Below, piece by piece: positions 7,842 through 31,867 of a stretch of 37,309 bases of DNA. The notes under the pieces are model-generated. The model was given only the letters and a program-made list of their open reading frames with translations, was not told where the DNA came from and did not search any database. The stretch is from Acidobacteriota bacterium (GTDB lineage Bacteria; Acidobacteriota; Terriglobia; Acidiferrales; UBA7541), in NCBI GenBank assembly GCA_003223295.1, contig QHYM01000122.1, positions 1-37,309 on the forward strand. Reading direction: 5' to 3'. The stretch's first letter is position 1. Each line of letters begins with the position of its first letter. The translations under genes and the position numbers were made by a program.

Positions 7842-8001
7842 GTTCCGAAAGTTACCCCACCGTTTTCTGGAGAGATGGCCACTGCGCAGTGTTACATTCG
7901 CAAGGCGGCGGAGTCGTTGCATATGAGCAACTTCGAACTTGCGCTACAGCAATCGGAAATGACGGCAGTCGCGTAAAGAAAGAACGGAAGGAGACCCGCG
8001 G

Positions 8002-8694: not shown

Positions 8695-8864
8695 AATCAA
8701 ATGGCCTCTCGGGCCCACCATCGTCGGTGGCCCTGTAAGCCGAAGACGCACCGGCTTCCACCGCGAGGGCATGGTCAGCCGTAAGATTCTGAGCTATCTG
8801 TGCCATCCTTTAGACCTATAAGCGACACCGACCATGGCGGCTGAATCAACCAAGAAGCACGGCT

Positions 8865-9272
8865 CTACGGTTCGTCATGGTGTGGCAAATATCGCGAAAC
8901 GAAGATGTTACCCGCCAGAGCTTCACGAATGGCGGGTACGAGCTCACTGGCGATTCGGGACTTCGAAACGTATCCAAAAGCACCGGCAGAGAGACATCTG
9001 CGCACAAACTCGGTGTCCGAGTGAACGGTCAGAAAGACGATCCGCGAATTGCAGCCCGATTCCTTCAAACGGTCGGCGGCTTCGATGCCATTAAGAATGG
9101 GCATCGAAATATCTGTCACAATGACCTCAGGCCTCAACCGCATGGCCTCCTCAAACAAGGCTTGGCCATTGCAGACCTTTCCAACGACCTCGAACTCCGG
9201 TTCTAAGAGCCGCTCTTCCATCTCCGGAAAGTGCGGGTGATCGTCTGCGAGAAGTATTCTCACTTTGCTCAA
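8865..9272 (-). CDS. Stand-alone receiver-domain response regulator
   Basis: A 135-residue receiver with Asp10-Asp11, phosphoacceptor Asp54 in VTDISMP, Thr82 and a Lys in GYVSKSR. It ends shortly after the fold (FVSRYLPHHDEP) with no DNA-binding domain. It resembles the receivers of the two NarL-type regulators in the window, so it may come from one by loss of the helix-turn-helix. It may compete for phosphate or act by protein contact. It is first in a probable operon with the Crp/Fnr gene and the Gly66 receiver. A CTG box sits 142 bp upstream. Confidence 0.87.
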   Translation of the reverse strand: MSKVRILLADDHPHFPEMEERLLEPEFEVVGKVCNGQALFEEAMRLRPEVIVTDISMPILNGIEAADRLKESGCNSRIVFLTVHSDTEFVRRCLSAGAFGYVSKSRIASELVPAIREALAGNIFVSRYLPHHDEP

Positions 9273-9384: not shown

Positions 9385-9429
9385 AGCATATTCGGAAGAA
9401 AATGTCGTCTCCACTGTAAAGAATGCCAG
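9385..9429 (-). promoter_or_regulatory. CTG-box promoter of the receiver/Crp/receiver cluster
   Basis: On the minus strand CTGGCATTCTTTACAG (9429 to 9414) is followed by TATGCT (9390 to 9385), offset 24. The start codon is at 9272. The plus direction has no hexamer at the right distance. Otherwise 9273-9585 holds only a run of eight T near 9519. Confidence 0.6.
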
Positions 9430-10716: not shown

Positions 10717-11232
10717 TCAGTTCGAAGCCGTTTTCACCACCGGCAAGCCGGCCGAGATTTGAAGATCAACTATGTGTTGCATTTGATTTTCGATCAGAAA
10801 GAACTTGGCTGCCTGGGTTGCCGAAAGGGCAGTCTTCATTTTGTCGAAATATTTTTTCTTCAGCTGGGCCCGCCGGGCTTCCAGCTCAAAAGCCTTGCTC
10901 ATAAGCGCATCGGCCTGATCATTGGTGAGGCTCTCGTAGTCCCGCGCATAGTCCACGATGAGCTGCGTGCGGCCATCGCCGATCGTAGTGAGCTCGGCGT
11001 CGTACTGTTGGAAAATCGGCCAGAACTTCGCGGCATCGGTGTCGTTGAATTCCATGAGCTGTGTAACGATATCTTTTCGCTGCGCTTTGATATCAGCCCT
11101 CAGCAACGTTACGTACGCCCGAAAATTCAGCTCCCGCGCATCGAAGCTTTCTTCCTGCGTGAACCCCACTGATGCCGCGAGCAGCGCCACAGCGAAGAGA
11201 GCTACGACCTTGAGTATTTTTGCTAGTTTCAT
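10717..11232 (-). CDS. Spy/CpxP-like periplasmic protein
   Basis: A 171-residue exported, mainly alpha-helical protein. The signal peptide (1-25) ends GFTQ. The mature part is highly charged and contains two LTxxQ-type motifs, LTNDQ and LSATQ, on long helices. That pattern is seen in Spy/CpxP periplasmic chaperones and stress sensors. The similarity is by motif and helix pattern only, so the call is tentative. It has a good ribosome site (GGAAGGG). It is first in an operon with the glycine-zipper gene and follows a perfect CTG box by about 170 bp. In enterobacteria, Spy and CpxP are envelope-stress outputs, which fits the regulon proposed here. Confidence 0.72.
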   Translation of the reverse strand: MKLAKILKVVALFAVALLAASVGFTQEESFDARELNFRAYVTLLRADIKAQRKDIVTQLMEFNDTDAAKFWPIFQQYDAELTTIGDGRTQLIVDYARDYESLTNDQADALMSKAFELEARRAQLKKKYFDKMKTALSATQAAKFFLIENQMQHIVDLQISAGLPVVKTASN

Positions 11233-11370: not shown

Positions 11371-11416
11371 ACAGTCCCGCAAGCGAATGCGCTTCGTTAA
11401 CTGTCAAAAGTGACAG
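11371..11416 (-). promoter_or_regulatory. CTG box upstream of the Spy/CpxP-like operon
   Basis: A perfect dyad, CTGTCACTTTTGACAG on the minus strand (11416 to 11401). The hexamer at the expected place is weak: GACTGT at offset 25 (11376 to 11371). No gene faces the plus side. Confidence 0.65.
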
Positions 11417-11986: not shown

Positions 11987-12150
11987 TCGTGGGGCACGCC
12001 GGCAAGCCCCGATTGAGGCTGCGCCGTATTCGGCGGCGCAGGATTCTCCGGTTCTTTGTGCCTGCGGAGCTTACTCACGGCGCCTCCAGCAGAGAATGTT
12101 TTTCGCGAAGCTACTCACCTGCCGGTTGCTGAGTACAGGACGACAGCTAT

Positions 12151-12195
12151 CTGTTAGTTCTGACAGTGTGAGACAAATACCCCACGGAACAACAT
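12151..12195 (+). promoter_or_regulatory. CTG-box promoter of the large MscS-type channel
   Basis: The dyad CTGTTAGTTCTGACAG (12151-12166) has the weaker hexamer CAACAT (12190-12195) at offset 24. It places transcription start near 12202, so translation should begin downstream of that. Confidence 0.6.
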
Positions 12196-12248
12196 GTCTG
12201 GCGTGTACTCCAGCCGACTTAGACCTAGGAAGAAGAGGGTATACACCT

Positions 12249-14837
12249 TTGACCCAACATGGGTCATCTCATCGCATCCCCCGAGGAGCAGTCCTTGGGG
12301 AAATTCTTGACCGATTTGCCCCCTGCATTGTCGCCGTCGCGCTGTTGTTCGTTTCCTTCCCACCGCTCATTCGCGGGATTCAGGCCCAGACGCTGCCCGT
12401 ACGGTTGACACCTTCGAACAACTCTAAGCAGTCGCAAGAGAGCGAAGCTCCGACAGTTCCTCCAACTCGATCTGTGGACCAAACTATTCCTCTGGCGCAG
12501 ATCGCTGACCGCGCGGAGGAGTTAGACCACCTCTTGCAAGAAATCAGCAGCCAACTGATACCCAAGTCTGAACTCCAGGAGTCACAAACGAAAGCGGAGG
12601 AACAGGCTGCAGAGACTCGTCGGCGAGCTCTGCAAACCAGGGATCTCTTGGCCGGTGACCCCACATCGCTGGATTTGGAGGACGAGCAGCGATACTGGCG
12701 CTCTCGGAGCCTTGAATACGCCGCAGAACGCAAGCTCTTGACGCTGCGTGCGGGGAAACTGGAGGAGCAGGTCCAAACACTTGAAGCCCAACAACCGGAG
12801 TGGGTGGCCACTTGGATCCAGATTCACAAATCTCCAGGAATCGGAGCCATTGTCGAGCGCATAAAGCAACAATTGGACAAGATTCAGGCTGCAAAATGGC
12901 AAGCACAAGAGCAGCTAAATGTAGTGCTTACTTTGCAAAATCGGATCTCTCAGCAAGACCAGCAAATCTCGGACATATTGGCGCGCGTGCGTCAAGCGCG
13001 CGAGCGCGAACGCGGTCGTCTCCTACAACTGGACGGCCGTCCGCTCTGGGAAGCGCGCGATTCGCAGGCACTGGAGCGAAACATCGGACCCTCTTTCCAC
13101 AGGCCCTTTGACCGGTCCTTTACAAGCGCTAAGGAGTTTTTGGGCGCACACAAAATCGTCCCGTTTATCCTCGCGACGGTTTACCTTTTGGCGCTCCTTG
13201 GTGTGTTCAAACTTAGGCGTTACGTTGCGTCGCTGCCCGAAGTTTCAGCCGAAGCGCACCAGGTATTGGGCCGCCCGTTTTCAGTAGCGCTTTTGGTGGT
13301 TCTGATCGGAACAGGGCAATATGTCGCTTCGACACCCATCGCCATCGCATTCGTCTTTTACCTGTTTTACTTAGTTCCCCTGTTGCGACTACTGGCTCCA
13401 TTGACCGAGTCCAAGCTTCGGATTCTTCTGTATGTCCTAGCCATATTATACGCACTTAGTGTTGCGTACCTGCTCATTCAGCTTCCGCCACCTTTCAGGC
13501 GCGAGCTTTACGCCCTGCTTGTTCTTGGCGCTTTGGTCAGTTTTTCCTGGCTTGTACGTCCATCGAGGATAGGCCCGCTACTGAGTCTGAACCGAAAGAC
13601 GCGAGTTCTCATGGTCGGAATCCGAGCGGGTCTCGTGCTACTGGCCGCATCTCTCGTGGCAAACGTCGTCGGATTTGTTTCCCTGGCTCAGGTTCTAGGA
13701 TTGAGTGCCTCGGTTGGATCCTTCGTAGCCGCTTCTCTTTACTGCGGCGTCCGCGTATTGACCCTAATTCTCAGCACCTTCCTGCACACGAACTGGGCGC
13801 ACGCCCTGCCCAAAATGCGGACGGATTCCATAGAGCGCTGGGGCGGTCGCCTCTTAAGTCTTGCGGCTTCGTTGTTGTGGCTAAACTCCACGTTACGACT
13901 GCTAAACATCTACGAAGGCTTGATGGGCGCTCTAGCCGATATGTTCCAACGCCCTATCGGCTTTGATCTGGTGCATTTCACCCTAGGGGGCGCCCTCAGC
14001 GTTGTACTGATCCTGTTGTTCGGCTACTCTCTCGCGAACGCGTTCACGTTCTTCTTGAGAAAGGTTGTGCTTCCAAGATTGCCGCTAAACCGCGGCGTAC
14101 CGTACGCCATTTCAACGATCGCCTATTACGTCCTCCTCCTGCTGGCTGCGCTGGCTGCCCTGTCCGCTGCAGGTGTCGAGCTGAACAAATTTACCGTACT
14201 TACAGGAGCTCTTGGGGTTGGTCTTGGCTTCGGCCTGCAGAATATCGTGAACAATTTTGTTTCTGGATTGATCCTGCTTTTCGAGCGTCCCATCCACGTC
14301 GGCGATACAGTAGATGTGGGTGGCCTTGTTGGCATGGTTCGGCGGATCGGGGCACGCTCTAGCACGATCCTAACGTTCCAGGGTGCGGAAGTGATCGTGC
14401 CTAATAGCAACCTGATTTCGAACCAAGTTATCAATTGGACGCTGTCATCCCAGTGGCGGCGCGTTGACGTGCCCGTCGGGGTTGCTTACGGCACCGATCC
14501 TGAACGGGTGATCAAGTTGCTCGTAGGAGTCGCGGAATCACATCCGGGAGTCTTGCTCGCGCGTCCGCCCATGGCCTTCTTTCTGGGATTTGGCGAGAGC
14601 GCACTGAAGTTTGAGCTGCGCTTCTGGTCAGATCGGCAAGACACCTGGTTTCAGCTCCAGAGCGATGTAACTGTCGCCGTGGCCAAGGCCTTAAGAGAAG
14701 CCGGCATCGAAATTCCATTCCCGCAACGAGATCTTCACGTTCGCAGCATCGACGCCTCAGCGGCAGAAAACGTCGCAAGCAATGGAATACGTCTTACATC
14801 TTCGGCTGACGCGACTGGACGGGGCATTCGTGCGTGA
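12249..14837 (+). CDS. Large MscS-family mechanosensitive channel (MscK/KefA-like)
   Basis: A tension-gated inner-membrane channel with a long periplasmic N-terminus. A signal sequence (core FAPCIVAVALLFVSFPPLI, cut near GIQAQ) precedes a coiled-coil region of about 230 residues rich in Glu, Gln and Arg. About ten membrane spans follow, then the MscS core: the pore helix and GLQNIVNNFVSGLILLFERP, then the beta domain with VGDTVDVGG and IVPNSNLISNQVINWT. I choose TTG 12249, which has GGAAGAAGAGGG ahead and lies after the predicted promoter. The frame extends to an ATG at 12096, but that part overlaps the CTG box and has no family character. With this start the protein has 862 residues. A second, unrelated-looking MscS gene follows at 15526. 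Confidence 0.9.
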   Translation: MTQHGSSHRIPRGAVLGEILDRFAPCIVAVALLFVSFPPLIRGIQAQTLPVRLTPSNNSKQSQESEAPTVPPTRSVDQTIPLAQIADRAEELDHLLQEISSQLIPKSELQESQTKAEEQAAETRRRALQTRDLLAGDPTSLDLEDEQRYWRSRSLEYAAERKLLTLRAGKLEEQVQTLEAQQPEWVATWIQIHKSPGIGAIVERIKQQLDKIQAAKWQAQEQLNVVLTLQNRISQQDQQISDILARVRQARERERGRLLQLDGRPLWEARDSQALERNIGPSFHRPFDRSFTSAKEFLGAHKIVPFILATVYLLALLGVFKLRRYVASLPEVSAEAHQVLGRPFSVALLVVLIGTGQYVASTPIAIAFVFYLFYLVPLLRLLAPLTESKLRILLYVLAILYALSVAYLLIQLPPPFRRELYALLVLGALVSFSWLVRPSRIGPLLSLNRKTRVLMVGIRAGLVLLAASLVANVVGFVSLAQVLGLSASVGSFVAASLYCGVRVLTLILSTFLHTNWAHALPKMRTDSIERWGGRLLSLAASLLWLNSTLRLLNIYEGLMGALADMFQRPIGFDLVHFTLGGALSVVLILLFGYSLANAFTFFLRKVVLPRLPLNRGVPYAISTIAYYVLLLLAALAALSAAGVELNKFTVLTGALGVGLGFGLQNIVNNFVSGLILLFERPIHVGDTVDVGGLVGMVRRIGARSSTILTFQGAEVIVPNSNLISNQVINWTLSSQWRRVDVPVGVAYGTDPERVIKLLVGVAESHPGVLLARPPMAFFLGFGESALKFELRFWSDRQDTWFQLQSDVTVAVAKALREAGIEIPFPQRDLHVRSIDASAAENVASNGIRLTSSADATGRGIRA

Positions 14838-15331: not shown

Positions 15332-15376
15332 CTGTCACTTTTGTCAGGTGGCAAATGCTAAAAACCCAAACAAGCT
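15332..15376 (+). promoter_or_regulatory. CTG box between small membrane protein and second MscS channel
   Basis: Dyad CTGTCACTTTTGTCAG (15332-15347). On the plus strand CAAGCT (15371-15376) lies at offset 24; on the minus strand CACCCT is at offset 24. Both hexamers have C instead of T at the first base, as in the other MscS promoter. The region 15195-15525 contains no gene. Confidence 0.55.
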
Positions 15377-15525: not shown

Positions 15526-17298
15526 ATGCGTGAAGCGCAAATGCCGCAGCGAACGAAACGTTGCACCGTCTCACCCGCGCGAATAATCCTGAGACCCATA
15601 TTGACTTGTGCAATGGTGGGCGCTTTGAGTGTCAGCTCCTCCGCTCGGCATGCAAACCAAGAGCTTGGCAGCGACGAGGGACAAACAGCGACGGCAGCCA
15701 GCAGCGCCCCGGTAGAGATCGATGGCAGGTCAATCTTCCTGGTACATTCTTCAATCGGCGGACTTTCCGCGGAAGAACGTGCAGAAAATATTGAGCAAAG
15801 GATTGTCAACATAGCGAGGAAAAATGAGATCCGGGTTGAAGAGATTCACGCCGAAGACCGCGGTGCCTGGACAGAAATTCTAGCGGGCAACGGCGTGGTC
15901 TTGGGGGTTACGGAGAACGACGCGAGAGCCGCAGGACGTTCCCGTGCTCAACTCGGCGCTGAATACGCAGAGATCATTCGCAGAACAGTTGCAACCTTCC
16001 GCCAGGAACATACATGGCGCGCTTTGCTGCGGGGTGTAATCGCTTGTGTGATTGCCACCGCAGGTCTGCTGCTCTCCGTCCTGTTGCTGCTACGTGTGCG
16101 ACGTATGGTACGCAGCAGGTTAGAAATGTGGATTCGCAGAACCGCGGATGCCAATTCTCCGAACTCAGTTCGCCCACGGATTGCGCGCTACCTTCTGTTG
16201 CCGCTGCTCGGAACTGGTGCGATTCTAATCATGTTCGCAGTTGTAGCTCTGCTGGAAGTCTACGCCGCTTTCATTTTGCACTCTTTCCCATCCACCAGAT
16301 ACACTTCAATCCGAATGAACAGGTGGGCTATCTCGGAATTGGCAGGCTTAGGAAATGCGATCTGGAGCTATATCCCCAATCTGGTTATCGTTATCGTAAT
16401 TCTTATGGCTGCGTGTTACCTGGTTCGGTTGGATAATTTCATCTTCGCGGAGATTCAAGAGGGAAGACTAACCCTGCATGGTTTCTATCCGGACTGGGGA
16501 GCGCCGACAGGTAAACTCGTGCGCCTTTTGATACTTTCGGCAACTGCTGTCGTCATCTTTCCCTACCTCCCGGGTTCCAACAGCCCTGCATTTCGTGGCA
16601 TTAGCGTATTCCTGGGTGTCCTGCTCTCGCTTGGATCAACTTCGGCCGTTTCTCATGGAGTCGCAGGCACCATCCTGACCTATATGCGTTCGTTCAACGT
16701 AGGCGATTTCGTGAGAATCGGGGACACCGTCGGTGAGGTTGTGGAAAGAAATCTCTTGGTGACGCGCATCTGCACGCAAAAAAACGAGATTGTTACAATT
16801 CCTAACGGAAGTGTTCTGGGCGGTGTCGTTCTGAACTATAGTGCCGAGGCCCGCAAGAACGGCGTGATCTTCCACACCACGGTTTCGATCGGGTACAACT
16901 CTCCGTGGAGAAAAGTTCACGAACTACTCATTAATGCAGCTCTGTCAACGCAGGATGTTTTGAAGTCTCCCCGTCCTTTTGTCTTGCAATCCAATCTACA
17001 GGACTTCTACGTCTCCTATGAGCTAAATGCGTTTACGGGACAACCACAGAATATGCAGACAATCTATTCCGTCCTCCATCAAAACATTCAAGACCAATTC
17101 AACGAGGCCGGGATAGAAATCAATTCACCGCACTACACTTCCCTGCGTGACGGCAACCGTATGGCGATCCCCGACGAGTACATAGCGAAAGGCTATAAGG
17201 AGCCGGGTTCTGGACTTCGCGAAGTTAGCGAGCCTGAAACATTCCTGGGTGAACCGCGCGAGCGAGTTCACTCAAACGTCCCGCCGTCACGTTCCTAA
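15526..17298 (+). CDS. MscS-family mechanosensitive channel
   Basis: A 590-residue channel. A signal-like segment (about 20-41) precedes a periplasmic domain (about 60-165; EERAENIEQRIVNIARKNEI, then GVVLGVTENDARAAGRSRAQL), as in MscS homologues that bear an exported extension. Four to five membrane spans follow (around 168-190, 220-250, 282-305, 335-355, 363-390). The MscS beta domain contains VGDFVRIGDTVGEVVERN and TIPNGSVLGGVVLNYS. The C-terminal domain ends in a hydrophilic tail. ATG 15526 or 15541 could be the start; neither has a strong ribosome site. It ends 4 bp inside the convergent HEAT-repeat gene. It differs clearly from the 12249 channel, so it is not a recent tandem duplicate. 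Confidence 0.88.
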   Translation: MREAQMPQRTKRCTVSPARIILRPILTCAMVGALSVSSSARHANQELGSDEGQTATAASSAPVEIDGRSIFLVHSSIGGLSAEERAENIEQRIVNIARKNEIRVEEIHAEDRGAWTEILAGNGVVLGVTENDARAAGRSRAQLGAEYAEIIRRTVATFRQEHTWRALLRGVIACVIATAGLLLSVLLLLRVRRMVRSRLEMWIRRTADANSPNSVRPRIARYLLLPLLGTGAILIMFAVVALLEVYAAFILHSFPSTRYTSIRMNRWAISELAGLGNAIWSYIPNLVIVIVILMAACYLVRLDNFIFAEIQEGRLTLHGFYPDWGAPTGKLVRLLILSATAVVIFPYLPGSNSPAFRGISVFLGVLLSLGSTSAVSHGVAGTILTYMRSFNVGDFVRIGDTVGEVVERNLLVTRICTQKNEIVTIPNGSVLGGVVLNYSAEARKNGVIFHTTVSIGYNSPWRKVHELLINAALSTQDVLKSPRPFVLQSNLQDFYVSYELNAFTGQPQNMQTIYSVLHQNIQDQFNEAGIEINSPHYTSLRDGNRMAIPDEYIAKGYKEPGSGLREVSEPETFLGEPRERVHSNVPPSRS

Positions 17299-18190: not shown

Positions 18191-18264
18191 GCCTTACACG
18201 CGAGACGTTGAGGGCAAGACTGTCAATACTGACAGGCCGAGCCATCGCTTGCTCCGGCTATTGA
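18191..18264. promoter_or_regulatory. Bidirectional perfect CTG box between HEAT lipoprotein and response regulator
   Basis: The dyad CTGTCAATACTGACAG (18220-18235) has TAAGGC (18196 to 18191) at offset 24 on the minus strand and TATTGA (18259-18264) at offset 24 on the plus strand. It can therefore serve both flanking genes. Confidence 0.72.
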
Positions 18265-18298: not shown

Positions 18299-18344
18299 CT
18301 GTCAAAAATGACAGTTTCCGCAAGGAGTTCGTTTTCCATAGCCT
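18299..18344 (+). promoter_or_regulatory. Perfect CTG box directly ahead of the 18367 response regulator
   Basis: CTGTCAAAAATGACAG (18299-18314) is followed by TAGCCT (18339-18344), offset 25. The predicted start of transcription is about 16 bases before the ATG. With the box at 18220 this gene has two copies, consistent with autoregulation. Confidence 0.72.
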
Positions 18345-18366: not shown

Positions 18367-19005
18367 ATGGCACTTGCACGCGTCATGCTAGCCGATGACC
18401 ACACGATGCTTGTCGAGGCATTCCGCAAACTCTTGGAATCTCAGTGCGAGGTCGTGGGCACAGCATCCGATGGCCGGTCGCTATTGGAAACCGCGCCGCG
18501 GCTCAAGCCTGACGTAATCATTGTGGACATCGCTATGCCCCTGATGAACGGCCTAGAAGCTGGGTTGCGATTGAAAGAACTGATGCCGGCAACGAAGCTT
18601 ATTTTCTTAACCATGAATGAGGATTCGGACCTTGCCATGGAAGCGATGCGCTGCGGAGCATCTGGTTATCTGTTGAAGAGTTCCGCAGCCTCGGAGTTAA
18701 TGCAAGCAATCCAGATGGCCCTGAAAGGGAAATCGTACATTACGCCACAGATAGCGCGGGGAATGCAGAAGGCGTTTATCAATGACCCTCGACCCAAACC
18801 GCGTACCAAAACCCTGACACCTCGGCAGCGGGAAGTCGTGCAGTTATTGGCCGAGGGGAAATCCATGAAGGAAGTCGCCAGTGTGCTAAAGGTGACGCCG
18901 CGGACTGTCGCGTTTCACAAATATCGCGTCATGGAGGAACTTAGCCTCAAGACGACCGCTGAATTGATTCAGTTCGCCATCAAATCACGAATCCTCGTAC
19001 CGTGA
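18367..19005 (+). CDS. NarL/FixJ-type response regulator, candidate CTG-box activator
   Basis: A 212-residue regulator of standard length. The receiver has Asp10-Asp11, phosphoacceptor Asp54 (IIVDIAMP), Thr82 and Lys104. The LuxR-type helix-turn-helix is about 150-200 (LTPRQREVVQLLAEGKSMKE; recognition helix KVTPRTVAFHKYRVM). It is closely related to 4054-4824 throughout, pointing to a duplication with separation to two loci. Two CTG boxes lie upstream, one only 53 bp from the ATG. LuxR-type domains often bind CTG-N10-CAG dyads near -42, so this is the best candidate for the factor that reads the CTG box. No kinase gene is adjacent, so its signal is unknown. Confidence 0.93.
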   Translation: MALARVMLADDHTMLVEAFRKLLESQCEVVGTASDGRSLLETAPRLKPDVIIVDIAMPLMNGLEAGLRLKELMPATKLIFLTMNEDSDLAMEAMRCGASGYLLKSSAASELMQAIQMALKGKSYITPQIARGMQKAFINDPRPKPRTKTLTPRQREVVQLLAEGKSMKEVASVLKVTPRTVAFHKYRVMEELSLKTTAELIQFAIKSRILVP

Positions 19006-19138: not shown

Positions 19139-19183
19139 CTGTCACTTTTGCCAGTTTCTGGGAAGGAACGCGCAAGCTAGTTT
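19139..19183 (+). promoter_or_regulatory. CTG-box promoter of the 19253 beta-barrel gene
   Basis: CTGTCACTTTTGCCAG (19139-19154) is followed by TAGTTT (19178-19183), offset 24. The ATG is at 19253 behind GAGGAGAAAAG. Confidence 0.68.
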
Positions 19184-19252: not shown

Positions 19253-19891
19253 ATGAGAATGAGAAGTGCATTTATGCTAGGGATTGTTCTGCTGTTTGGA
19301 ACGGCCGCGCTCGCCCAGGATTATGCCAAAGTGGAAGTTCCCTTGGGCTACTCCTTCATGCGATTCAACCCCGAGAACAGCAACATCGTCAGCGGCCTTT
19401 CGCTGAACGGCGGAGGCGGGGGTGTCACCGTGTACGTTAACCACATGTTTGGGATCACCGCAGAATTCAATGGCTACGGCAGCCTCTCAAGGACCTTTGC
19501 TTTTCCTGCAACAGCTAACAGCCCATGCCCAGCGGGGTGCACCGTGACGGCTGACGGCAACCTCTTCACCTATAACGTAGGCCCCGTTTTGAAATACCGC
19601 TCTGAACATTTCGAGCCTTTCGTAGAGACGCTGTTTGGCGGCGCCCATTCTAATACCTACCAAAACCTGCTTAAGGCTTGTCAGGCGAACTGCACCACTA
19701 CGCAGAACCCCAGCAACAACGCGTTCGATTTCGTCATAGGTGGAGGGATCGACATTCCAGTGACCAAATCCTTCTCCATCCGGCCGGCACAGTTTGATTT
19801 TGTGCTGACGCGGTTCGGCAACAGCTTTACCAAGGGCAACAACAACCAGAGCAACTTTCGGTACAACGCCGGCATCGTTTTCCGGTTCTAA
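19253..19891 (+). CDS. Outer-membrane beta-barrel protein
   Basis: A 212-residue protein with a signal peptide (about 1-21, ending ALAQ), alternating hydrophobic/polar strands, and a terminal FRF, the usual outer-membrane barrel ending. It resembles OmpA-type eight-strand barrels seen repeatedly in Acidobacteriota. A pair of Cys residues (SPCPAGC) and another (ACQANC) sit in predicted loops and may form disulfides. There is a strong ribosome site. A clear hairpin terminator follows at 19932-19982, so it is a single-gene transcript under the CTG box at 19139. Its function may be structural or a porin. Confidence 0.82.
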   Translation: MRMRSAFMLGIVLLFGTAALAQDYAKVEVPLGYSFMRFNPENSNIVSGLSLNGGGGGVTVYVNHMFGITAEFNGYGSLSRTFAFPATANSPCPAGCTVTADGNLFTYNVGPVLKYRSEHFEPFVETLFGGAHSNTYQNLLKACQANCTTTQNPSNNAFDFVIGGGIDIPVTKSFSIRPAQFDFVLTRFGNSFTKGNNNQSNFRYNAGIVFRF

Positions 19892-20364: not shown

Positions 20365-20409
20365 CTGTCACTATTGACAGTATCGCGGGCCGGGCTACGG
20401 AACTAACGT
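20365..20409 (+). promoter_or_regulatory. Perfect CTG-box promoter of the PEGA-OmpA gene
   Basis: CTGTCACTATTGACAG (20365-20380) is followed by TAACGT (20404-20409), offset 24. Transcription would start near 20416, so the ATG at 20410 is unlikely to be used and ATG 20455 (with GGGAGGCGG ahead) is the start. Confidence 0.72.
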
Positions 20410-20454
20410 TTGGATGCAGCTGGCAACGAGTTGCCTGCATTGGGAGGCGGACTT

Positions 20455-22182
20455 ATGAAACATCAAAAAGGCAGAATATTCTTCGGAGTCTTGGGCGCGA
20501 TGGTTTTGCTCAGTTCGGCCGCTGTTGCGCAAGAACCAAAAGCGGGAAAACTGAAGATCTCGGTTTCTCCCAAACAAGCGTACACATTCGTCGACGGCAA
20601 GGCGATTGGCCCTGGCAATCGAACGATTGAGCTCGAAGTAGGAACGCACCATTTGGTTGTAGCGAACTATGGTTTCAAATTTGTTGAGCAAGACGTCTCA
20701 ATCGATTCGAACGAAACTCACCCTGTGAATATAAATCTGGATCCTGTCGGCGGGGACCTACCAGGCCCGCACGGACGCATCCAGATTGAAGTGGGCATGA
20801 GGCGCGCCGGTGATGCCGCTGTTTTGCTAAACGGCAAGAACCCCCAGTACTTTGTCGGGCATGTCGATGAGTTTAATAATGAAATCGGCTCGCACCAAGA
20901 GCTGATCGTTCCGCCCGGCACCCATGAAGTAACGATCACCAGATATGGCAAAGAACTTTGGTCCGGTTCGGTCACGGTCGCGGCCAACCAGCGCGTAATC
21001 TTGGATATCTCGAATGCAAAGCAAGTAACCAAGGCTTGGCCGCGCGGGTCCCGCGAGCTGGGCGCAAACGTTGCGCGGTTTCACGCGGGCATTGTAAGTG
21101 CCACAGTTGTTGTGGCCCCTGTGAGCGGAACTGTTTCAGCGAACCCAAGCAAAATCGATTGCAACCAAAATACTCAGTTGGCCTGGACCTCCGGCGAGAC
21201 CATTGACGCCGACATGAGTGGCCTGAGCCCGGTTCCCACCACGGGCGAAAGGACGATCTCACCTCGGCAAACGACTACGTACGAACTCACGGCTACCGGC
21301 ACAGGGGGCGTTACCAAGCCGAGCACTACCGTCGAAGTAAATCCTATTGTTCAGTCCACGCTGAACGCTTCACCCGCGGAGATTCGGTACCGGCGTATCG
21401 GCGACAAGCTCATCGAGCAGGGGAACACCACGCTGACCTGGTCATCGTCCAATGCGGACGCAGCCTCTCTCGGTACCCTTGGCTCCGTAGACGCCAGCGG
21501 CAGCAAGTCCCTAACCCTTAGTCCAACTCAGACTGCGGATGGTCTTGTCAACGAAGAATTCAAGTACACATTGACTGCGACAAATGTGTGTGGCGGCTCT
21601 GACACGAAGACCGTCACTGTGCACTTGAAGGGCTCCATCGAGCCGATTCCAACAGTGCTGCTTCGCAGCGTCTTCTTCCCAACCGATTATCCCGCGAGGC
21701 AATATCCGCAGCTTGGACTCGTTCGAAGTCAGCAAGAAGCATTGACTAGCCTTGCTTCTGGATTCAAACAGTATCTCGAGTATGACGTAAATGCCAAACT
21801 GTCGCTGGATGCGTACACAGACGAACGCGGTGAGGAACAATACAATAAAGCGCTGTCCGAATTGCGGGCTCAGCGCGTCAAGGAGTTCCTGGTCTCACAA
21901 GGCATCGCCGCAGATAAGATCGCCTCCTCAGCCAACGGTGAAGAGAATCCGCTCGACAAGGCGACGGTCATTGACTTGCAATCACGGAACCCAAATCAGC
22001 CACAAGAGACACGCATTCGCAACTTCCGCGCAACTTGGCTCGCTTACAATCGCCGCGTGGATATCGTTTTGCTTCCCACAAATGCTGAATCCGTTCGTTT
22101 CTACCCGAACCAAGCTGCAGATTCAGAAATTCTTTGGCAAAGGCCAAAGCCAGCACGCAGTAAAGTTGAAAGTAACAATTAG
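20455..22182 (+). CDS. PEGA/Ig-like/OmpA multidomain envelope protein
   Basis: A 575-residue exported protein. A signal peptide (about 1-25, ending AAVAQ) is followed by two PEGA-like beta modules (about 30-105 and 110-190; FVDGKAIGPGNRTIELEVG and LIVPPGTHEVTITRYGKELW). Ig-like segments follow (about 215-295 and 300-395; SANPSKIDCNQNTQLAW, TTYELTATGTGG). A C-terminal OmpA-type peptidoglycan-binding domain (about 425-555) has DAYTDERG, YNKALSELRAQRVKEFL and NRRVDIVL. It probably tethers the envelope by binding peptidoglycan, with exported binding modules in front. The Ig part has the Cys pair CNQN...VCGG. A CTG box lies directly upstream. A D15-like barrel follows after a hairpin. Confidence 0.86.
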   Translation: MKHQKGRIFFGVLGAMVLLSSAAVAQEPKAGKLKISVSPKQAYTFVDGKAIGPGNRTIELEVGTHHLVVANYGFKFVEQDVSIDSNETHPVNINLDPVGGDLPGPHGRIQIEVGMRRAGDAAVLLNGKNPQYFVGHVDEFNNEIGSHQELIVPPGTHEVTITRYGKELWSGSVTVAANQRVILDISNAKQVTKAWPRGSRELGANVARFHAGIVSATVVVAPVSGTVSANPSKIDCNQNTQLAWTSGETIDADMSGLSPVPTTGERTISPRQTTTYELTATGTGGVTKPSTTVEVNPIVQSTLNASPAEIRYRRIGDKLIEQGNTTLTWSSSNADAASLGTLGSVDASGSKSLTLSPTQTADGLVNEEFKYTLTATNVCGGSDTKTVTVHLKGSIEPIPTVLLRSVFFPTDYPARQYPQLGLVRSQQEALTSLASGFKQYLEYDVNAKLSLDAYTDERGEEQYNKALSELRAQRVKEFLVSQGIAADKIASSANGEENPLDKATVIDLQSRNPNQPQETRIRNFRATWLAYNRRVDIVLLPTNAESVRFYPNQAADSEILWQRPKPARSKVESNN

Positions 22183-23541: not shown

Positions 23542-23587
23542 CTGTCAATCTTGACAGTGGCCAACTATTCCTACGAAGCGTTACAAG
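23542..23587 (+). promoter_or_regulatory. Perfect CTG-box promoter of the 23633 operon
   Basis: CTGTCAATCTTGACAG (23542-23557) is followed by TACAAG (23582-23587), offset 25. The ATG at 23633 is about 40 bases after the predicted transcription start. Confidence 0.68.
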
Positions 23588-23632: not shown

Positions 23633-24415
23633 ATGTTGCCCGCACAGAATGCTTCCCGGTCACGAATTCCTAAGATGATGATGCTGCTGTTTATGTTTTA
23701 TATCTCGCTCTTGTTTCTGCTGATGCCCTTGGCTCGGCCACAGCAGCACGACATGCACAACATGCCAGGGATGAAAATGAATGTGCCTGCTGCTCCAGAA
23801 GACCCGGCGCAAGCGGCCAAGCGGCTAGCGGACAAGCAAGAGAGCGAATTCAATCATCACTTGGCTGGATTGTTCGTCATCTTAGCGGGAGCTTTCATCC
23901 TCGCGGAGAGCCACCTCGTCACCCGTTTGCCGGTGGTGCGTTATGCTTGGTCTACGTGCTTTCTGGCGGCTGGCCTCTTTGTTCTATTCTATAGCGATAC
24001 CGAGATCTGGCCCTTTGGTCCTCAGAGTCCTTGGTATGCAATCACCCACAATGTCGAGGACTTACAGCACAAGATCTTCTCTATCATTCTTTTGGCGCTG
24101 GGATACGTTGAATTTCAAAGAGCGCGAGGGCGATTGAAATCCCCATGGGCTGCCTGGTTTTTTCCTGTAGTAGGTGGCGCGGGCGCTATTTTGCTGCTGT
24201 TTCACGTTCACAGCGGCGATATGCAGTCACCCCACGCTATGGAAAGCATGGAGCGCATCCAGAGACAGCACCATTGGTTCGCAAGCACGGGGTTAGGAGT
24301 GGCACTGGCGAACGGATTAGCTGAAACATCACAGAAGTGGCAGCAATTCTTCAGAAAAGTATGGCCCGCGTTATTGATCATTCTTGGCGTCCTGCTGGTT
24401 TTATATAAGGAATAG
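23633..24415 (+). CDS. Polytopic membrane protein with His/Met-rich segment
   Basis: A 260-residue inner-membrane protein. A first hydrophobic helix (about 15-35) is followed by a His/Met-rich stretch (QQHDMHNMPGMKM) that could bind copper or a similar metal on the outside. Five or six more spans follow (about 77-93, 101-121, 144-160, 172-192, 218-236, 242-258) with conserved-looking His residues in loops (EFNHHLAG, ITHNVEDLQHK, FHVHSGDM, QRQHHWFAS). I recognise no named family; it loosely recalls copper-handling membrane proteins. It is under a perfect CTG box and precedes the 24516 gene by 100 bp. Confidence 0.72.
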   Translation: MLPAQNASRSRIPKMMMLLFMFYISLLFLLMPLARPQQHDMHNMPGMKMNVPAAPEDPAQAAKRLADKQESEFNHHLAGLFVILAGAFILAESHLVTRLPVVRYAWSTCFLAAGLFVLFYSDTEIWPFGPQSPWYAITHNVEDLQHKIFSIILLALGYVEFQRARGRLKSPWAAWFFPVVGGAGAILLLFHVHSGDMQSPHAMESMERIQRQHHWFASTGLGVALANGLAETSQKWQQFFRKVWPALLIILGVLLVLYKE

Positions 24416-25217: not shown

Positions 25218-25485
25218 GGTCGGAGACACCGTAAAAGAGGGTTTGCGAGCCTCTTGGGATGGCGGAGCCGACCTGTTAGGCAGGATGCTTTTTCCTCGGC
25301 AATCCAGCCGGTTGGTACGCGCGGGCATTTCTGCCCGGGTTCGGGGTTGGGCCGACTCCGCGCGGTCGAGAATGGTCTTGCCTCGGAATTCCCCGAAACT
25401 GTCAAACCATACAGGGACGGCGTGCGATGCGCCAATGGACTCCATGACCCAGGAGTGCGTCGGCACTCGATTCGTACGGCTCCTC

Positions 25486-25536
25486 GCCTACTGTCGATTG
25501 TGACAGTAGGCGTTGGCCCCCCATTCCGCCGATATT
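25486..25536 (+). promoter_or_regulatory. Extended CTG-box promoter of the OmpA gene
   Basis: CTGTCGATTGTGACAG (25491-25506) lies inside longer perfect arms, GCCTACTGTC (25486-25495) and GACAGTAGGC (25502-25511). The hexamer GATATT (25531-25536) is at offset 25. The ATG at 25578 follows. Confidence 0.65.
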
Positions 25537-25577
25537 TTCCTGTGCCCAGCTATTTGCGGGTCGCAAGCGAGACTCCT

Positions 25578-27086
25578 ATGGACCATAAGAAAATTCTTTT
25601 CTGCTCTTTAGTTCTATCTCTGACGGCCGGCACAGCCGCGGCGCAGTCGCAGGATAAGGTGCCGGACTCCAACTCGGTCAGCAGATCCGTCAAAGCAATC
25701 GGCTATAAGGTCGGCGGTGGCAATACCAAAGTCGATCTAAACGGCACAGACTTGATGGCTCAAGCCATGGGAGAGGCAAGAGTCGAGGCGAAGCCAGGCG
25801 CAACGAATATCGAGATCTCACTGAAAAACATGACGGAGCCGTCGAAGCTGGGCGCCGAGTTCCTGACCTACGTGCTCTGGGTAGTTACTCCCGACGGACG
25901 CACCGGCAACACCGGCGAGCTCCTCATCAACAAAAACGGGGAAGCGAAGCTCAACGCGACCACGCCCGCGCAGACGTTCGCTATGCTCATTACCGCCGAG
26001 CCATATTTTGCCGTGCGTGTTCCCAGCGAGATGGTTGTCCTGGAAAACGAGATCCGCAAAAGCACAAAGGGACAAATCTTCCCAGTCAATGATTTCAAGC
26101 TAATGAAGCGGGGCCAGTATGAAAAGTTGGGAAACCCGCTGGCAATGACTCCTGATCTCGAGCATGTTCCGCTGCAAGTCTACGAAGCACGCAACGCCGT
26201 GGACATTGCCAAGTCTCGCGGGGCCGAGAAGGATGCCCCCGAAATCTTTACAAAAGCCACCGCCAGTTGGCAAATGACGGAAAACGCCCTGACTGGTAAG
26301 GCGGACAAGAAAGAGATCATGTCCATGGCCCGGCAGGCGATACAATTTGCCGAGGACGCGCGTGCGCTCGCCGCGCAACGCCAGGAAGAAGCGCGTATTG
26401 CTGCGGAGAGAGAAGCGGCCGCCGCCAAGGCCAAGGCGGAGGCGGAAGCCAAGGCTGCTGAGGAGGCTGCGGAAGCTAAACGTAAGACCGACGAAGAGGC
26501 CAAACGTCAGGCTGAGCTGGCCGCCGCAAAGCAGGCACAAATGAAGGCGGAGGCAGACGCGGCAGCCATCAAAGCCAAAGCGGAAGAGGATGCCCTGAAG
26601 GCAAAAGAAGAAGCAGCTCGCGCCGACGCCGAACGCGCCCGCCAAGCGGCGACCACATTACGCACTCAACTGCTCGAACAATTCAACCGCATTCTGGAAA
26701 CCCGTGACACGCCGCGTGGGCTCGTTGTCAACATGGGGGACGTGCTGTTCGATTTTGGCAAATATGATCTTCGCCCGGAGGCGAGAGAGAAATTGGCTAA
26801 ACTATCGGGCATTATCCTGGCGCATCCCGGCTTGAACCTTGGCATCGAAGGGCACACCGACAATGTCGGCAGCGACGAGGTTAATCAAAAGCTTTCTGAG
26901 CAGCGCGCGGAATCGGTGCGCAGCTATCTTAATGAGCAGGGGCTGGCACAAACGAACGTGACGGCGCGCGGCTTCGGCAAATCCATGCCTGTTGTCGATA
27001 ATTCGACTCCCGCAAACAGGCAAAAGAATCGTCGAGTGGAAATTGTGGTCTCCGGCGAAGTGATCGGGGTAATGATCGGGATATAG
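25578..27086 (+). CDS. OmpA-family peptidoglycan-associated protein with long helical spacer
   Basis: A 502-residue exported protein. The signal peptide (about 1-22) ends GTAAAQ. A beta-rich domain (about 30-165) is followed by a helical region (about 200-360) rich in Ala, Lys and Glu, including a near-perfect AEAEAKAAEEAAEAKRK run. The C-terminal OmpA domain (about 375-495) has VLFDFGKYDLRPEAREKLAKL, IEGHTDNVGSD, LSEQRAESVRSYL and NRQKNRRVEIVV. It should bind peptidoglycan, with the long helix spanning the periplasm. I start at ATG 25578: an upstream in-frame extension to 25254 runs through the promoter dyad and has no signal peptide. It is monocistronic as far as can be seen. The coding end is followed by a short hairpin without a T-run. 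Confidence 0.87.
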   Translation: MDHKKILFCSLVLSLTAGTAAAQSQDKVPDSNSVSRSVKAIGYKVGGGNTKVDLNGTDLMAQAMGEARVEAKPGATNIEISLKNMTEPSKLGAEFLTYVLWVVTPDGRTGNTGELLINKNGEAKLNATTPAQTFAMLITAEPYFAVRVPSEMVVLENEIRKSTKGQIFPVNDFKLMKRGQYEKLGNPLAMTPDLEHVPLQVYEARNAVDIAKSRGAEKDAPEIFTKATASWQMTENALTGKADKKEIMSMARQAIQFAEDARALAAQRQEEARIAAEREAAAAKAKAEAEAKAAEEAAEAKRKTDEEAKRQAELAAAKQAQMKAEADAAAIKAKAEEDALKAKEEAARADAERARQAATTLRTQLLEQFNRILETRDTPRGLVVNMGDVLFDFGKYDLRPEAREKLAKLSGIILAHPGLNLGIEGHTDNVGSDEVNQKLSEQRAESVRSYLNEQGLAQTNVTARGFGKSMPVVDNSTPANRQKNRRVEIVVSGEVIGVMIGI

Positions 27087-27261: not shown

Positions 27262-27306
27262 CTGCTAGTTTTGACAGTTCCAGCAGATCAGGCAGGCCAC
27301 TACTAT
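27262..27306 (+). promoter_or_regulatory. CTG-box promoter of the RND efflux operon
   Basis: CTGCTAGTTTTGACAG (27262-27277) is followed by TACTAT (27301-27306), offset 24. Transcription would begin near 27313, ahead of the membrane-fusion gene. The flank TTTTGACAGTTCCAGC is shared with the box at 20068. Confidence 0.68.
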
Positions 27307-27425
27307 CCTCGGGCGGTGAGCGCCTATAGTCGTTTGCCCACGCGCTTGCGGCTCCAGATCTCGTGTCTCCGAGTCCAGGGGGCACTGAAAAATTGGGGAG
27401 CCGGAGACCTTGCGGAGCGTGCGCT

Positions 27426-28637
27426 ATGAAAACTAAGCCATTACCATTCGCTCTAGCCCTTTTGGCCCAGACAATATGGTTGTCTGGATGCGAGACAAAT
27501 CAGCAGGCTGCGCCGGCTCCCCCGCCCGTAGAATTCGTCGAAGTCACCCAAAAAGATGTGCCCGTCAGCAAAGAATGGGTGGCAACGCTGGATGGATTTG
27601 TTAATGCTCAGATTCGCGCCCAGGTAAAGGGTCTTCTCGTTAAGCAAAGCTATACAAATGGCGCATTTATTAGTAAAGACTCTGCCCTCTTCGAGATAGA
27701 TCCGAGGCCCTTTCAGGCAGCGCTTGACCAAGCCAGCGCGAACCTGGATCAAGCAAAGGCGAACCTTCAGCGAGCTGAAGCGCAGTTCGGCAAGACAGAG
27801 TTGGACGTTACACGCTATACGCCTCTGGCTAAGGAAAGCGCCATCAGTCAGCAGGAACTGGACGATGCCATCCAGGCTAACCTCGGAGCAAAGGCCCAGG
27901 TGGAGCAGGCAAAGGCAGCCATCGCGTCTGCCCGCGCTGCAGAGGAGTCAGCCAAACTAGATCTCAGCTTCACAAAGATAATTTCTCCCATTAATGGCGT
28001 TGCCGCCATCGCTACGGCGCAGATCGGCGACTTCGTGAGCCCCTCCGGAGAGCCTCTAACCGCGGTATCGACGATCAATCCGATTCTCGTGAACTTCACG
28101 GCAAGCGAGCAAGAGTATCTGAACGCGATGAAGCAGGCAGCTGCTTTGGGCGGTGGCGAGCACGCGATCTTGAACCGGCTGGAATGGCAACTGCGCTTAT
28201 CAGATGGATCTACCTACCCACACAAAGGCCACTTTTATGCTCTTGATCGCCAAGTGGACGTGAGAACCGGAGCAATTCTCGTAAAAGTCGAATTCCCTAA
28301 TCCTGGAAATGTGCTTCGCCCGGGCGGCTTCGGAAATATCAGCACGGTGGTCAGAGTTCAAAAAAACGCTTTGCTTATTCCGCAACGAGCCGTCAATGAG
28401 CTACAAGGCGGGTATCTCGTGGCGGTGATCGGCAAGGACAACAAAGTGAACATTCGTCCGATCAAAGTGGGGCCTAGAGTCGACACCATGTGGATTGTGG
28501 ATGAAGGTCTGAAGCCGGGAGACCGAATCGTCGCGGAAGGCGTGCAAAAGGTGCGCGAAGGGATGGAAGTTCAACCGAAGCCGTTCCAGCAAGGATCAGC
28601 AACAGAGCGTACAAAAATGGCGAGCAGCACCCCATAA
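27426..28637 (+). CDS. RND efflux membrane-fusion lipoprotein (HlyD/AcrA family)
   Basis: The periplasmic adaptor of a tripartite efflux pump. A lipobox (IWLSGC, Cys22) anchors it in the inner membrane. The mature protein has the usual order: a beta strand ([17 protein letters not shown]), lipoyl half ([34 protein letters not shown]), helical hairpin (about 100-180), second lipoyl half ([16 protein letters not shown]) and beta-barrel/MP domain with RPGGFGNIS and [15 protein letters not shown] 27426 gives a proper lipoprotein signal; a GTG at 27363 would bury it. It is 10 bp before the permease, so the operon is tight. HAE1-type substrates (drugs or hydrophobic compounds) are likely but not proven. 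Confidence 0.93.
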
Positions 28638-28647
28638 GAGCTACTTC

Positions 28648-31600
28648 GTGTACAAATTTTTTATAAACCGGCCCATCGTCTCCATGGTGATTTCAATCAT
28701 CATGGTTATCGTTGGTATCGTCGCCATGTTGAGCCTGCCCACTGCACAGTTCCCTAACATTACGCCTCCGGAAGTTCAGGTGAAGGCCACCTATGTGGGT
28801 GCCGACGCCCAAACTGTAGAGCAGTCCGTAGCTACACCCATCGAGCAGCAAATGAGCGGTGTGGACAACATGAACTACATGTATTCCAACAACGCCAACA
28901 ATGGGCAGCTAACGCTCACTGTGAACTTCGACGTGAAAACTGATCCGAACACAGATCAGATTCTCGCTCAAATGCGCCAGAACCAGGCAGCCTCGCAACT
29001 TCCAGTGGAAGTCAACAGCTACGGCGTAACCGTTCAGAAATCCACCGCCGCCCCTCTCATGTTGTTCGACCTGTACTCTCCGAACGGCACTTATGACTCC
29101 GAATTCCTGGCGAATTATGCCTACATCAATCTTAACGACCAACTGACTCGGGTGGCAGGGATCGCCAGCGTATCCGTCTTTGGCGCGGGTCAATATGCCA
29201 TGCGTTTTTGGGTCAAGCCCGATCAACTGGCTAAGCTGCAAATCACTGTTCCTGAAATCATCAATGCGATTCAGACGCAAAACAATGTCAATCCGGCGGG
29301 GCAAATCGGCAGCGAACCTGTTCCCCTGGGCCAGGAATATACCTACACCGTTCGTTCGCAGGGCCGCCTTACCACGGAGGAAGAGTTCGGCAACATCGTG
29401 ATTCGCGCCAAGACCGACGGTTCCATCGTACGTTTGAAAGATGTTGCGCGCGTACAGCTCGGCGCCCAAGTCTATAACCTGCAAGGAAGGTTAGATGGCA
29501 AGCCAGCAGCCGTCGTTGCCATTTACCAGCTTCCTGGATCTAACGCCATCGCCGCCGCTAAAGGCGCGAAAGCTCTTATGGCAGAGGCGAGAAAACGCTT
29601 TCCACCAGGCCTCGACTATGTCGTTGCACTGGACACTACTCTCCCGGTTACCGAAGGAATTGTGGAGATCGAGCACACTTTGGTGGAAGCTCTGGTCCTT
29701 GTAATTCTTGTGGTCTACCTATTTCTGCAAGGCTGGCGGGCCACGTTAATTCCCTTGCTGGCTGTGCCGGTGTCACTGATTGGGACCTTTGCTCTTTTTC
29801 CGCTTTTGGGCTTTTCCATCAATACACTTTCGCTCTTCGGCTTGGTGCTTGCCATTGGCTTGGTTGTGGACGATGCCATCGTTGTAGTCGAGGCCGTTGA
29901 GCACCACATCGAACATGGGCTATCGGCGAAAGAGGCTTCCTTCAAAGCGATGGAAGAAGTCTCCAGTCCGGTGATCGGCATCGCCGTCATCCTATCCGCA
30001 GTATTCATTCCCACAGCTTTCATCCCGGGGATCACCGGACGGCTCTACCAGCAGTTCGCTGTAACGATTGCAGTCTCCGTGTTGCTTTCCGCGTTCAATG
30101 CCTTAACCCTTAGTCCGGCTCTTTCTGCCCTTTTACTTCGACCGAAAAAACCGGCACGAGGGCCTCTCGGCAAGTTCTTCGCATGGTTCAACCGGGTATT
30201 TGGTCGCGCCACGGATGGCTACGTCCGTTGGTGCGGAGTATTGATCCACAAGATGGGATTCAGCCTGATCATACTCCTGGGTTTCACTGTCCTGGCAGGG
30301 TGGTTTGGCATGAAGCTACCCACTAGTTTTCTCCCCGACGAGGACCAGGGCTATGTCTTTGTGGCATTGCAGTTGCCCGATGCCTCTTCCCTTCAACGCA
30401 CGAGCTTGACTGCTAAAAAAGTCGAGGACATTTTGCTTAAGACGGATGGCGTCAATCATGTGACAAGCGTCGTCGGCTATAACATGATCAGCGGAGCACA
30501 GAATACGTTCAGTTGCTTCTTTTGGGTCACACTCAAGGAATGGGGTGAGCGCAAAACCGCCGAGGAGCAGTATGCGGCTATCAGAGCTCACCTAAATGCA
30601 GATCTGCGGCAACTTCCGGCGGGCGTGTCTATCGCATTCTCGCCTCCGGCAATCCCCGGCGTTGGGACTTCGGGTGGGGTGACCTTCATGCTCGAAGATC
30701 GTGCGGGACATGACGTCAGCTTCCTCGCCAAGAATGTGGATACGTTCATGCAGGCCGCGCGCAAACGTCCTGAGTTGGCCTCTGTATTTACTACCATGTT
30801 GCCTTCGGTTCCGCAGGTCTTTGTCAACGTTGAGCGGGACAAGGTTCTGGCTCAAGGTGTCAATCTGAGTGACGTGTACAAAACTTTTCAAGCCTTCATG
30901 GGAGGCGCGTTCATCAATTACTTCAACCGCTTCGGCCGCCAGTGGCAAGTTTACATTCAAGCCGAGGGTGACTATCGGACCCGGGCCGAGAATTTGGGCC
31001 AGTTTTACGTTCGCAATAGCGCCGGCGGCATGGTGCCCCTGTCCGCAGTGATTTCGATTGATCACCGGGTGGGCCCTGAATTCACGTTGCGATACAACCT
31101 GTTTCGGTGCGCACAAATCAATGCCAGCGCTAATACCGGTTACAGCTCTGCTCAGGCTATGGCAGCAATGGAGGAAGTCTTTGCACAGACCATGCCGCCA
31201 GATATGGGCTTTGATTACCTCGGCATGTCTTACCAGGAGAAGAAGGCTCAGCAAGGCGTGCCGCCTGCCGTTATCTTCGGTTTCTCGTTTCTTTTTTGTT
31301 TTTTGATTCTCGCGGCGCTTTACGAGAGTTGGACTCTTCCGTTTAGCGTGCTCCTGAGTGTACCAATCGCTGTCTTTGGAGCATTTGCCAGTCTCTATCT
31401 TCGTCGGCTCACCAGCTTCTCTTTCGAGAACAACGTCTATGCACAAATCGGGCTGATTATGTTGATCGGCCTTGCCGCTAAGAACGCCATCCTCATCGTG
31501 GAGTTTGCTAAAGCTGGGCACGAAAAAGGTCAGTCGCTCCTCGATGCCGCACTCGAAGGCGCCAAGCTTCGGCTGCGCCCCATTCTAATGACCTCTTTCG

Positions 31601-31830: not shown

Positions 31831-31867
31831 TTTTTACAAGATTTGAGATTGTAAGTCTTTAGACGCT

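Follow-up and report, generated by a model that had tools for sequence, protein, structure and literature searches.

Two response regulators of the NarL/FixJ type, encoded on a single acidobacterial contig, very probably switch on about a dozen neighbouring and mostly envelope-related gene units through a 16-bp palindrome, 5′-CTGTCA-N4-TGACAG-3′. We consider it highly likely that both proteins are phosphorylation-dependent activators which bind this box as dimers and drive a regulon lying around the regulator gene from class II promoters.

The window, that is, the whole stretch of DNA analyzed here, is a complete contig of 37,309 bases (C378) in a genome of 6.03 Mb and 481 contigs. The earlier note had described the motif as CTG-N10-CAG. 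This pattern is over-represented in the window (31 sites against 11.5 expected, a count reached in 0 of 100 shuffles), but the actual box is more specific, its consensus being the tighter CTGTCA-N4-TGACAG. Sites with 0, 1, 2 and 3 mismatches to the consensus number 5, 6, 6 and 20, respectively, compared with 0, 0.07, 1.37 and 12.0 expected from 30 first-order Markov sequences; those with three mismatches are largely chance. The genome contains seven exact copies, five of which lie in this contig, and none of the reversed control pattern, which was also absent from all loci pooled when one mismatch was allowed. Of the 131 boxes with at most one mismatch found in the window plus 80 fetched loci, 114 lie between genes, although a simple gene caller marks about 80% of that DNA as coding. 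The Markov and shuffle controls, the reversed pattern and the intergenic placement rule out a chance origin of the boxes. A de novo search of the intergenic DNA around the regulator returned TGTCA-N4-TGACA as the top dyad in the window, G146, G262, G051 plus G166, G076, G280, G286 and G254; it did not come first in G037, G223, G245, G278, the pooled f11 loci and G045 plus G006.

The ORF at 18367–19005 (+) starts with ATG and encodes a protein of 212 aa with a receiver domain (Response_reg, PF00072; 94.3 bits) and a GerE helix-turn-helix (PF00196; 53.4 bits) at residues 149–204. The ORF at 4054–4824 (−) has the same two domains (95.5 and 54.7 bits in Pfam), and the two proteins are 65% identical, while the next match to the 18367 protein in the genome reaches 38%. 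Their recognition helices read TPRTVAFHKYR and APRTVAFHKYR; the domain assignment and the helix reading thus bear out a pair of REC+GerE regulators with near-identical recognition helices. The paralogue is considered here as the second candidate reader at 4192–4824 (−). Its annotated ORF continues to 4054 with a C-terminal extension of ~45 residues, which overlaps the convergent aldolase-II gene at 3345–4211 by 158 bp; the G146 homologue is 212 aa long, and most homologues compared finish at 210–219 aa. In a 17-row alignment (A1), the receiver residues D10, D11, D54, T82 and K104 of the 18367 protein are invariant, so that it has the phosphorylatable Asp and the D/D/T/K set expected of NarL/FixJ regulators. 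The same alignment is the basis for the invariant columns of the recognition helix, R179-T-V-A182-F183-H184-K185-Y186-R187. The closest named relatives of both proteins are from Acidobacteria MAGs. Among the best 25 NCBIfam matches listed, the 18367 protein reached no equivalog cut-off, scoring 155.6 against 300 for MctR, 128.2 against 280 for UvrY/GacA and 125.3 against 250 for NarL.

The earlier note reported no neighbouring kinase, and in agreement with this a Pfam scan of 30 window ORFs (of 91 mechanical ORFs) found no kinase domain, nor was one found in 8865–9272, which was scanned with NCBIfam only. Eight HisKA_3 kinases are encoded elsewhere in the genome, and the 2.1–3.2 kb around each of them contain no box even when two mismatches are allowed; on this evidence none of the eight appears to be a cognate kinase under the control of the box. 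Between the two regulators lie genes for a phosphatase of the SpoIIE type and for two REC proteins in which no output domain was recognised (5965–7356, 7395–7922 and 8865–9272), and a partner-switch or phosphorelay input from these genes is possible.

At the left end of the window, a 1-mismatch box at 1345–1360 (+) with the −10 hexamer TATCGT at +23 precedes a sortase-like gene at 1641. Two 2-mismatch boxes face the other way. The one at 5738–5753 (−) precedes 5150–5662 (−), and transcription from it possibly reads through this gene to the regulator at 4192–4824 in a putative transcription unit; the one at 9414–9429 (−), with a −10 of TATGCT at +23, precedes the REC gene 8865–9272 (−) and a CRP-like gene at 8002–8772 (−). 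An exact box at 11401–11416 (−) with a weak −10 (GACTGT at +24) precedes 10717–11232 (−). Two 1-mismatch boxes are associated with MscS-type channels: that at 12151–12166 (+) lies at the start of ORF 12096–14837, whose real start is probably further downstream, and that at 15332–15347 (+) precedes 15526–17298. Beyond the 18367 regulator, a 1-mismatch box at 19139–19154 (+; TAGTTT at +23) precedes a beta-barrel protein gene (19253–19891), and an exact box at 20365–20380 (+; TAACGT at +23) precedes a PEGA/OmpA protein gene (20410–22182), which has a second box with two mismatches at 20068 and probably also begins further downstream than annotated. A further exact box at 23542–23557 (+) precedes a LiaF-TM-like gene (23633–24415). 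Near the start of an OmpA-family ORF (25254–27086) are a 1-mismatch box at 25491–25506 (+) and a 2-mismatch box at 25399. Finally, a 2-mismatch box at 27262–27277 (+), with a −10 of TACTAT at +23, precedes the HlyD/AcrB/OEP efflux genes (27363–33337), and a 1-mismatch box at 34592–34607 (+; TAGCGT at +23) precedes an ECF sigma factor gene (34654–35274). This sigma factor was rejected as the reader, as the box appears to be a dyad upstream of a σ70-type −10 and not an ECF −35/−10 pair. The window has no match in Rfam.

The position of the box relative to the promoter is rigid. Among 58 boxes oriented by an unambiguous downstream gene, from 34 loci, the A2 and T6 of a −10 hexamer were found at offset 23 in 35, at offset 24 in 12 and at either in 45, while the mean over all offsets was 3, other adjacent pairs of offsets gave at most 13 and the mirror image at most 6. 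The same was seen without orientation, with a −10 at offset 23 for 165 of 262 boxes in all loci (mean 25) and for 26 of 36 in loci not labelled Acidobacteria (mean 3.5). In the window, where 17 boxes differ from the consensus at two positions or fewer, 16 of them show a −10 at 23 or 24 on one side, against ~3 expected from the other offsets. The oriented boxes share the spacer N-T-T-[TC] and are followed by a T (47/58) and a second T (31/58), which indicates that the −35 region abuts the box. When the hexamer is set as −12 to −7, and start sites are thereby set by the hexamer, the box spans −51 to −36. The earlier note had placed the site near −42; by the −10 spacing its center is at about −43.5. 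A site beside the −35 region at a fixed distance from a σ70-type −10 is the class II activator position, and these 45 of 58 oriented boxes have it, as do boxes in other phyla. We infer from this layout that transcription at these promoters is activated.

Two alternatives bear on this layout. Were the boxes a dispersed repeat of the REP or MITE kind with no regulatory role, the clustering of five of the seven exact genome copies in one contig would be accounted for, but in the window the spacers and flanks vary from copy to copy, and the intergenic bias, the fixed −10 spacing, the directional spacer and the recurrence in other phyla leave this explanation extremely improbable. The regulators might also bind the box and repress. 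A repressor more often covers the −10 or +1, and an activator sits just upstream of the −35. The box lies just upstream of a weak −35 region, an activator's place, which argues for the activating role.

As to which protein reads the box, co-occurrence was scored in 299 genomes of the class, with a match to the 18367 protein defined as E≤1e-55 and the top 10 candidates scored per genome. Such a match was found in 49 genomes and an exact box in 42. The recognition helix was read for the matches in all 49, and a helix class, RT[VIA]AxHKY, was defined after the box counts were known. Of the 23 genomes with this class, 20 contain the exact box, 16 of them in two or more copies. The 26 genomes whose relatives carry other helices, mostly TVE or TAE but also PGTVAF, KTVAFHKA and KTVM forms, include two with the box (one of them with two copies). 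The matches G077:C517 and G280:C3 both have TVE helices and leave these counts as they are. An exact box occurs in 20 of the remaining 250 genomes, and two or more in 3. Fisher's test of helix class against box gave p = 1.2e-8 (23 versus 26 genomes) and 1.0e-16 (23 versus 276), the genomes being related. Within the genus, the exact box is present in 7 of 7 genomes with a regulator match (E≤1e-55) and in 1 of 23 without. The co-occurrence proposed as a check in the earlier note is strong in the class (20 of 23 helix-class genomes) and is seen again in other phyla, with exceptions and as an association that is not phylogenetically independent: just two changes of helix class fall on the regulator tree, which leaves two independent contrasts, and a sign test cannot be significant.

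Genomes with many boxes and no such regulator had been named as a refutation of the pair, and there is one clear case. In G190, which has nine exact boxes, each of the four homologues at E≤1e-25 carries another helix. With an assembly that is 90% complete and split into 350 contigs, and with the regulator present in two genus-mates, the gene possibly lies on a missing contig. G149 and G251 are two weak cases, with two boxes each and no class member seen, the helix having been read in 2 of 12 and 1 of 2 homologues. Besides, G239 has two boxes with a KTVMFHKY helix, G295 has the helix class without an exact box, and in G299, which has two class regulators (RTVAAHKYR), no HTGTCA-N4-TGACAD box was found and no other dyad stood out in its two loci. 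The G190 boxes, together with a protein–box link that consists of co-occurrence, would also fit another conserved factor that travels with the regulator, for example an unrecognised DNA-binding protein, as the reader; the box and the regulator adjoin each other in several phyla, and we regard this possibility, taken jointly with repression by the regulators, as quite unlikely.

The CRP/FNR-type regulator at 8002–8772 (−; cNMP_binding and HTH_Crp_2 in Pfam) is the other candidate within the window. TGTCA-N4-TGACA matches an FNR-type site in length and symmetry, and the protein shares the island with the boxes. When at most eight candidates were scored per genome, a CRP-like protein at E≤1e-40 was found in 15 of the 299 genomes, 13 of which have a helix-class regulator. 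However, among the 20 genomes that contain at least two exact boxes it is present in only 9, as against 16 for helix-class regulators, and G051 and G166, with 11 and 10 boxes, have the response regulator without the CRP-like protein. The 2-mismatch box with TATGCT at +23 in front of the adjacent REC gene, and at least 2 CRP-like proteins among 186 box targets, suggest that the CRP-like protein is more likely a member of the regulon; that it reads the box we consider a slim prospect, slimmer still than the preceding one. The NarL-type pair, put forward as the readers in the earlier note, is in our view a strong proposal, favoured by the co-occurrence, the −10 spacing and the adjacency of box and regulator. 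The boxes, their intergenic placement, their fixed −10 spacing and their co-occurrence with the helix class are read directly from the sequences; binding, activation in place of repression, phosphorylation, the division of labor between the paralogues and the function of the regulon would be deductions from them.

In one lineage, a variant helix is accompanied by a variant box. K188, V189 and K192 of NarL, which contact bases, align with A182, F183 and Y186 of the 18367 protein. G280 and G286 are sister genomes (one clade, 99/87) whose helix-class regulators have A183 and either H or T at 187. The outer bases of the boxes in these two genomes are C..G in 0 and 0, C..A in 4 and 9 and T..A in 1 and 2 cases, respectively, compared with sums of 89, 9 and 3 in the 20 helix-class genomes without A183, among which G262 has an S183 copy besides its F183 copies. 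Fisher's p for this shift is 1.5e-12, for genomes that are not phylogenetically independent. G076 (A183, A187) has three C..G and two C..A boxes. With the −10 as the guide to orientation, the G280 and G286 boxes have the changed base in the promoter-proximal half at 14 of 16 sites and in the distal half at 5 of 16, a proximal bias not simply predicted by a symmetric dimer. The outer bases of these boxes are mostly asymmetric, with C distal and A proximal at 11 of 16 sites. Because the shift is asymmetric and is confined to a single lineage, the covariation of helix and box is only suggestive.

The earlier note had suggested autoregulation from two boxes directly upstream of 18367–19005. Both are exact: CTGTCAATACTGACAG at 18220–18235 begins 147 nt upstream of the start codon and has TATTGA at +23, and CTGTCAAAAATGACAG at 18299–18314 begins 68 nt upstream and has TAGCCT at +24. 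The G146 orthologue (85% identical) has boxes at −143 (exact) and −65 (CTGTTAGTAGTAACAG, a symmetric change), and a G223 homologue at −187 (exact) and −109 (two mismatches), so that the paired boxes are 78–79 bp apart in all three. More widely, 7 of the 80 best genome_contigs loci have a box with at most one mismatch in the 300 bp before the regulator (~3 expected) and 20 of 80 have one in the 350 bp after it (~4 expected); both expectations follow from the average box density of these loci, 0.13 per kb. These results suggest that feedback is likely here but not general, and that a target directly after the regulator is the commoner arrangement.

Gammaproteobacterial loci have a box promoter immediately behind the regulator, and from it starts a stretch of ~200–300 nt with hairpins and without a convincing ORF, the latter as examined in L285, L231, L240, L236, L252, L243 and L278. 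The stretches concerned are L285 10653–10910, L231 10188–10420, L238 10666–10900, L237 10678–10910, L240 6327–6540, L236 6452–6700, L252 10715–10930, L243 10664–10900 and L278 10664–11000. Some of the hairpins have GGA in the loop, as in those resembling GAG-TTCATA-GGATTT-GACTC, which occur twice in L238. Folding z-scores of four stretches were −3.4 (L231), −0.5 (L238), −0.7 (L285) and −2.3 (L237). Rfam found no small-RNA match in seven Gammaproteobacterial loci, only two tRNAs. The stretch after the regulator may possibly encode a small RNA.

The regulator and its box extend beyond the class. When genome_contigs was scanned with 17 members of the class (A1), 138 loci were obtained, the best 80 of which were analyzed; RTVA[FA]HKY was among the scan patterns, so the presence of the helix class in these loci is largely by construction, and many of the Acidobacterial loci are from the same genomes as the class search. 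By record title, the 80 include Planctomycetota, Gammaproteobacteria, Alphaproteobacteria, Verrucomicrobiota, Nitrospira and one Deltaproteobacterial chromosome, in which 7, 13, 3, 1, 8 and 1 boxes with at most one mismatch were found, respectively. Pyrinomonadaceae have 8 such boxes, an unclassed bacterium 1, an unclassed Proteobacterium 2, a gp4 Acidobacterium 0 and the other Acidobacteria 122, all against an expectation of at most 0.33 per group (three Markov versions per locus). In whole carrier genomes, the exact box is present in 17 of 28 (up to 13 copies, reversed control at most 1), while the other 11 have the regulator without it. These 28 include two Pyrinomonadaceae and one gp4 Acidobacterium; in the 25 not labelled Acidobacteria, 15 have the box. 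Most of these genomes are MAGs and may include single mis-binned contigs; among the carriers, Gemmata sp. IIL30 and CP070734.1 are represented by long contigs.

A regulator tree of 80 rows (78 of the 80 loci and the two window proteins) mostly follows phyla, with 12 label changes where the least possible is 10; the Planctomycetota rows are scattered, with 5 changes for 5 rows. No plasmid matched the regulator at E≤1e-45. The regulator–box pair thus looks mainly old, and recent mobility across phyla was rejected. On a tentative view, to which we give slightly less than an even chance, the pair would be ancient and undescribed: Acidobacteriota, Planctomycetota, Verrucomicrobiota, Nitrospirota, Myxococcota and Pseudomonadota would all have retained the RT-x-A-x-HKY helix class, the 16-bp box and the rigid promoter layout, with targets exchanged almost freely, and in Gammaproteobacteria the pair would drive a small RNA bearing GGA-loop hairpins beside the regulator.

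The targets themselves were compared by Pfam content. The 264 distinct boxes with no more than one mismatch gave 186 target proteins, a target being accepted when a −10 (A2, T6) lay at 22–24 and a gene was called no further than 450 bp away; in 55 box orientations the −10 was present but a called gene at that distance was lacking. Within the 25 commonest families of each half, OmpA accounted for 10 of the 186 targets, Sulfatase for 7 and MscS for at least 5, compared with 3, 2 and 2 of 144 control genes from the same loci (145 drawn). In Pfam families the targets differ little from genes picked at random in the same loci, too little to put a name to the signal.

Two further loci deserve description. 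In G000:C46 (L177), three identical box-like sites, CTGTCAAAATTACCAG, at 738, 913 and 1088 are spaced exactly 175 bp apart and so probably belong to a tandem repeat carrying the box. At G000:C425:20325 (L174), an exact box adjoins a REC-only gene which, like 8865–9272 of the window, is among the closest matches to the receiver of the regulator, possibly a second small regulon cluster.

In the mechanism that we propose, the 18367–19005 and 4192–4824 proteins would be activated by phosphorylation, and each would bind as a dimer to CTGTCA-N4-TGACAG, centered ~43.5 bp upstream of the start and against the −35. The bound regulator would recruit σ70 RNA polymerase where a −10 hexamer is paired with a weak −35, as in class II activation. 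The predicted targets around the regulator are the mechanosensitive channels, OmpA-type and beta-barrel envelope proteins, the RND efflux operon and the ECF sigma factor, and additionally the REC protein with the CRP-like regulator and the regulator itself.

Acidobacteria are among the commonest soil bacteria, and to our knowledge little is known about their transcriptional regulons. An operator that is readable from sequence in several phyla would make the regulon listable in many unculturable genomes. The helix and box variants (F183/A183, outer C/T) form a natural series for how GerE domains read DNA, and the pair could serve as a ready activator–promoter part. No description of the box or of the regulator–box pair was found in the open-access texts searched, most subscription journals being outside that scope, and the regulator family and box appear undescribed in that literature.

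Among known systems, the NarL/FixJ regulators are the nearest. The closest solved structures, VraR (5hev) and NarL (1a04), share the full-length REC+GerE architecture (phmmer E-values of 1.7e-30 and 7.3e-28) and likewise a dyad operator; NarL differs from the 18367 protein at all three of the aligned base-contacting positions, and the NarL heptamers differ from the present box. LuxR-type quorum regulators have the GerE domain in common, but the 18367 protein has REC in place of their autoinducer-binding (acyl-homoserine-lactone) domain. The CTG-N10-CAG palindrome is the arrangement of the lux box. As given in PMC4471428, the lux box is 20 bp long and centered at −42.5, compared with 16 bp and about −43.5 here. 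GacA/UvrY is likewise of the NarL family, and the Gammaproteobacterial box promoter with its hairpin stretch after the regulator recalls the GacA-driven small RNAs; the 18367 protein scores below the cut-off of that family, and the seven loci lack an Rfam small-RNA match. The GacA box is TGTAAG-N6-CTTACA, an operator of different spacing. In kind, then, the system is a known one, a NarL-type activator with a lux-box-like site.
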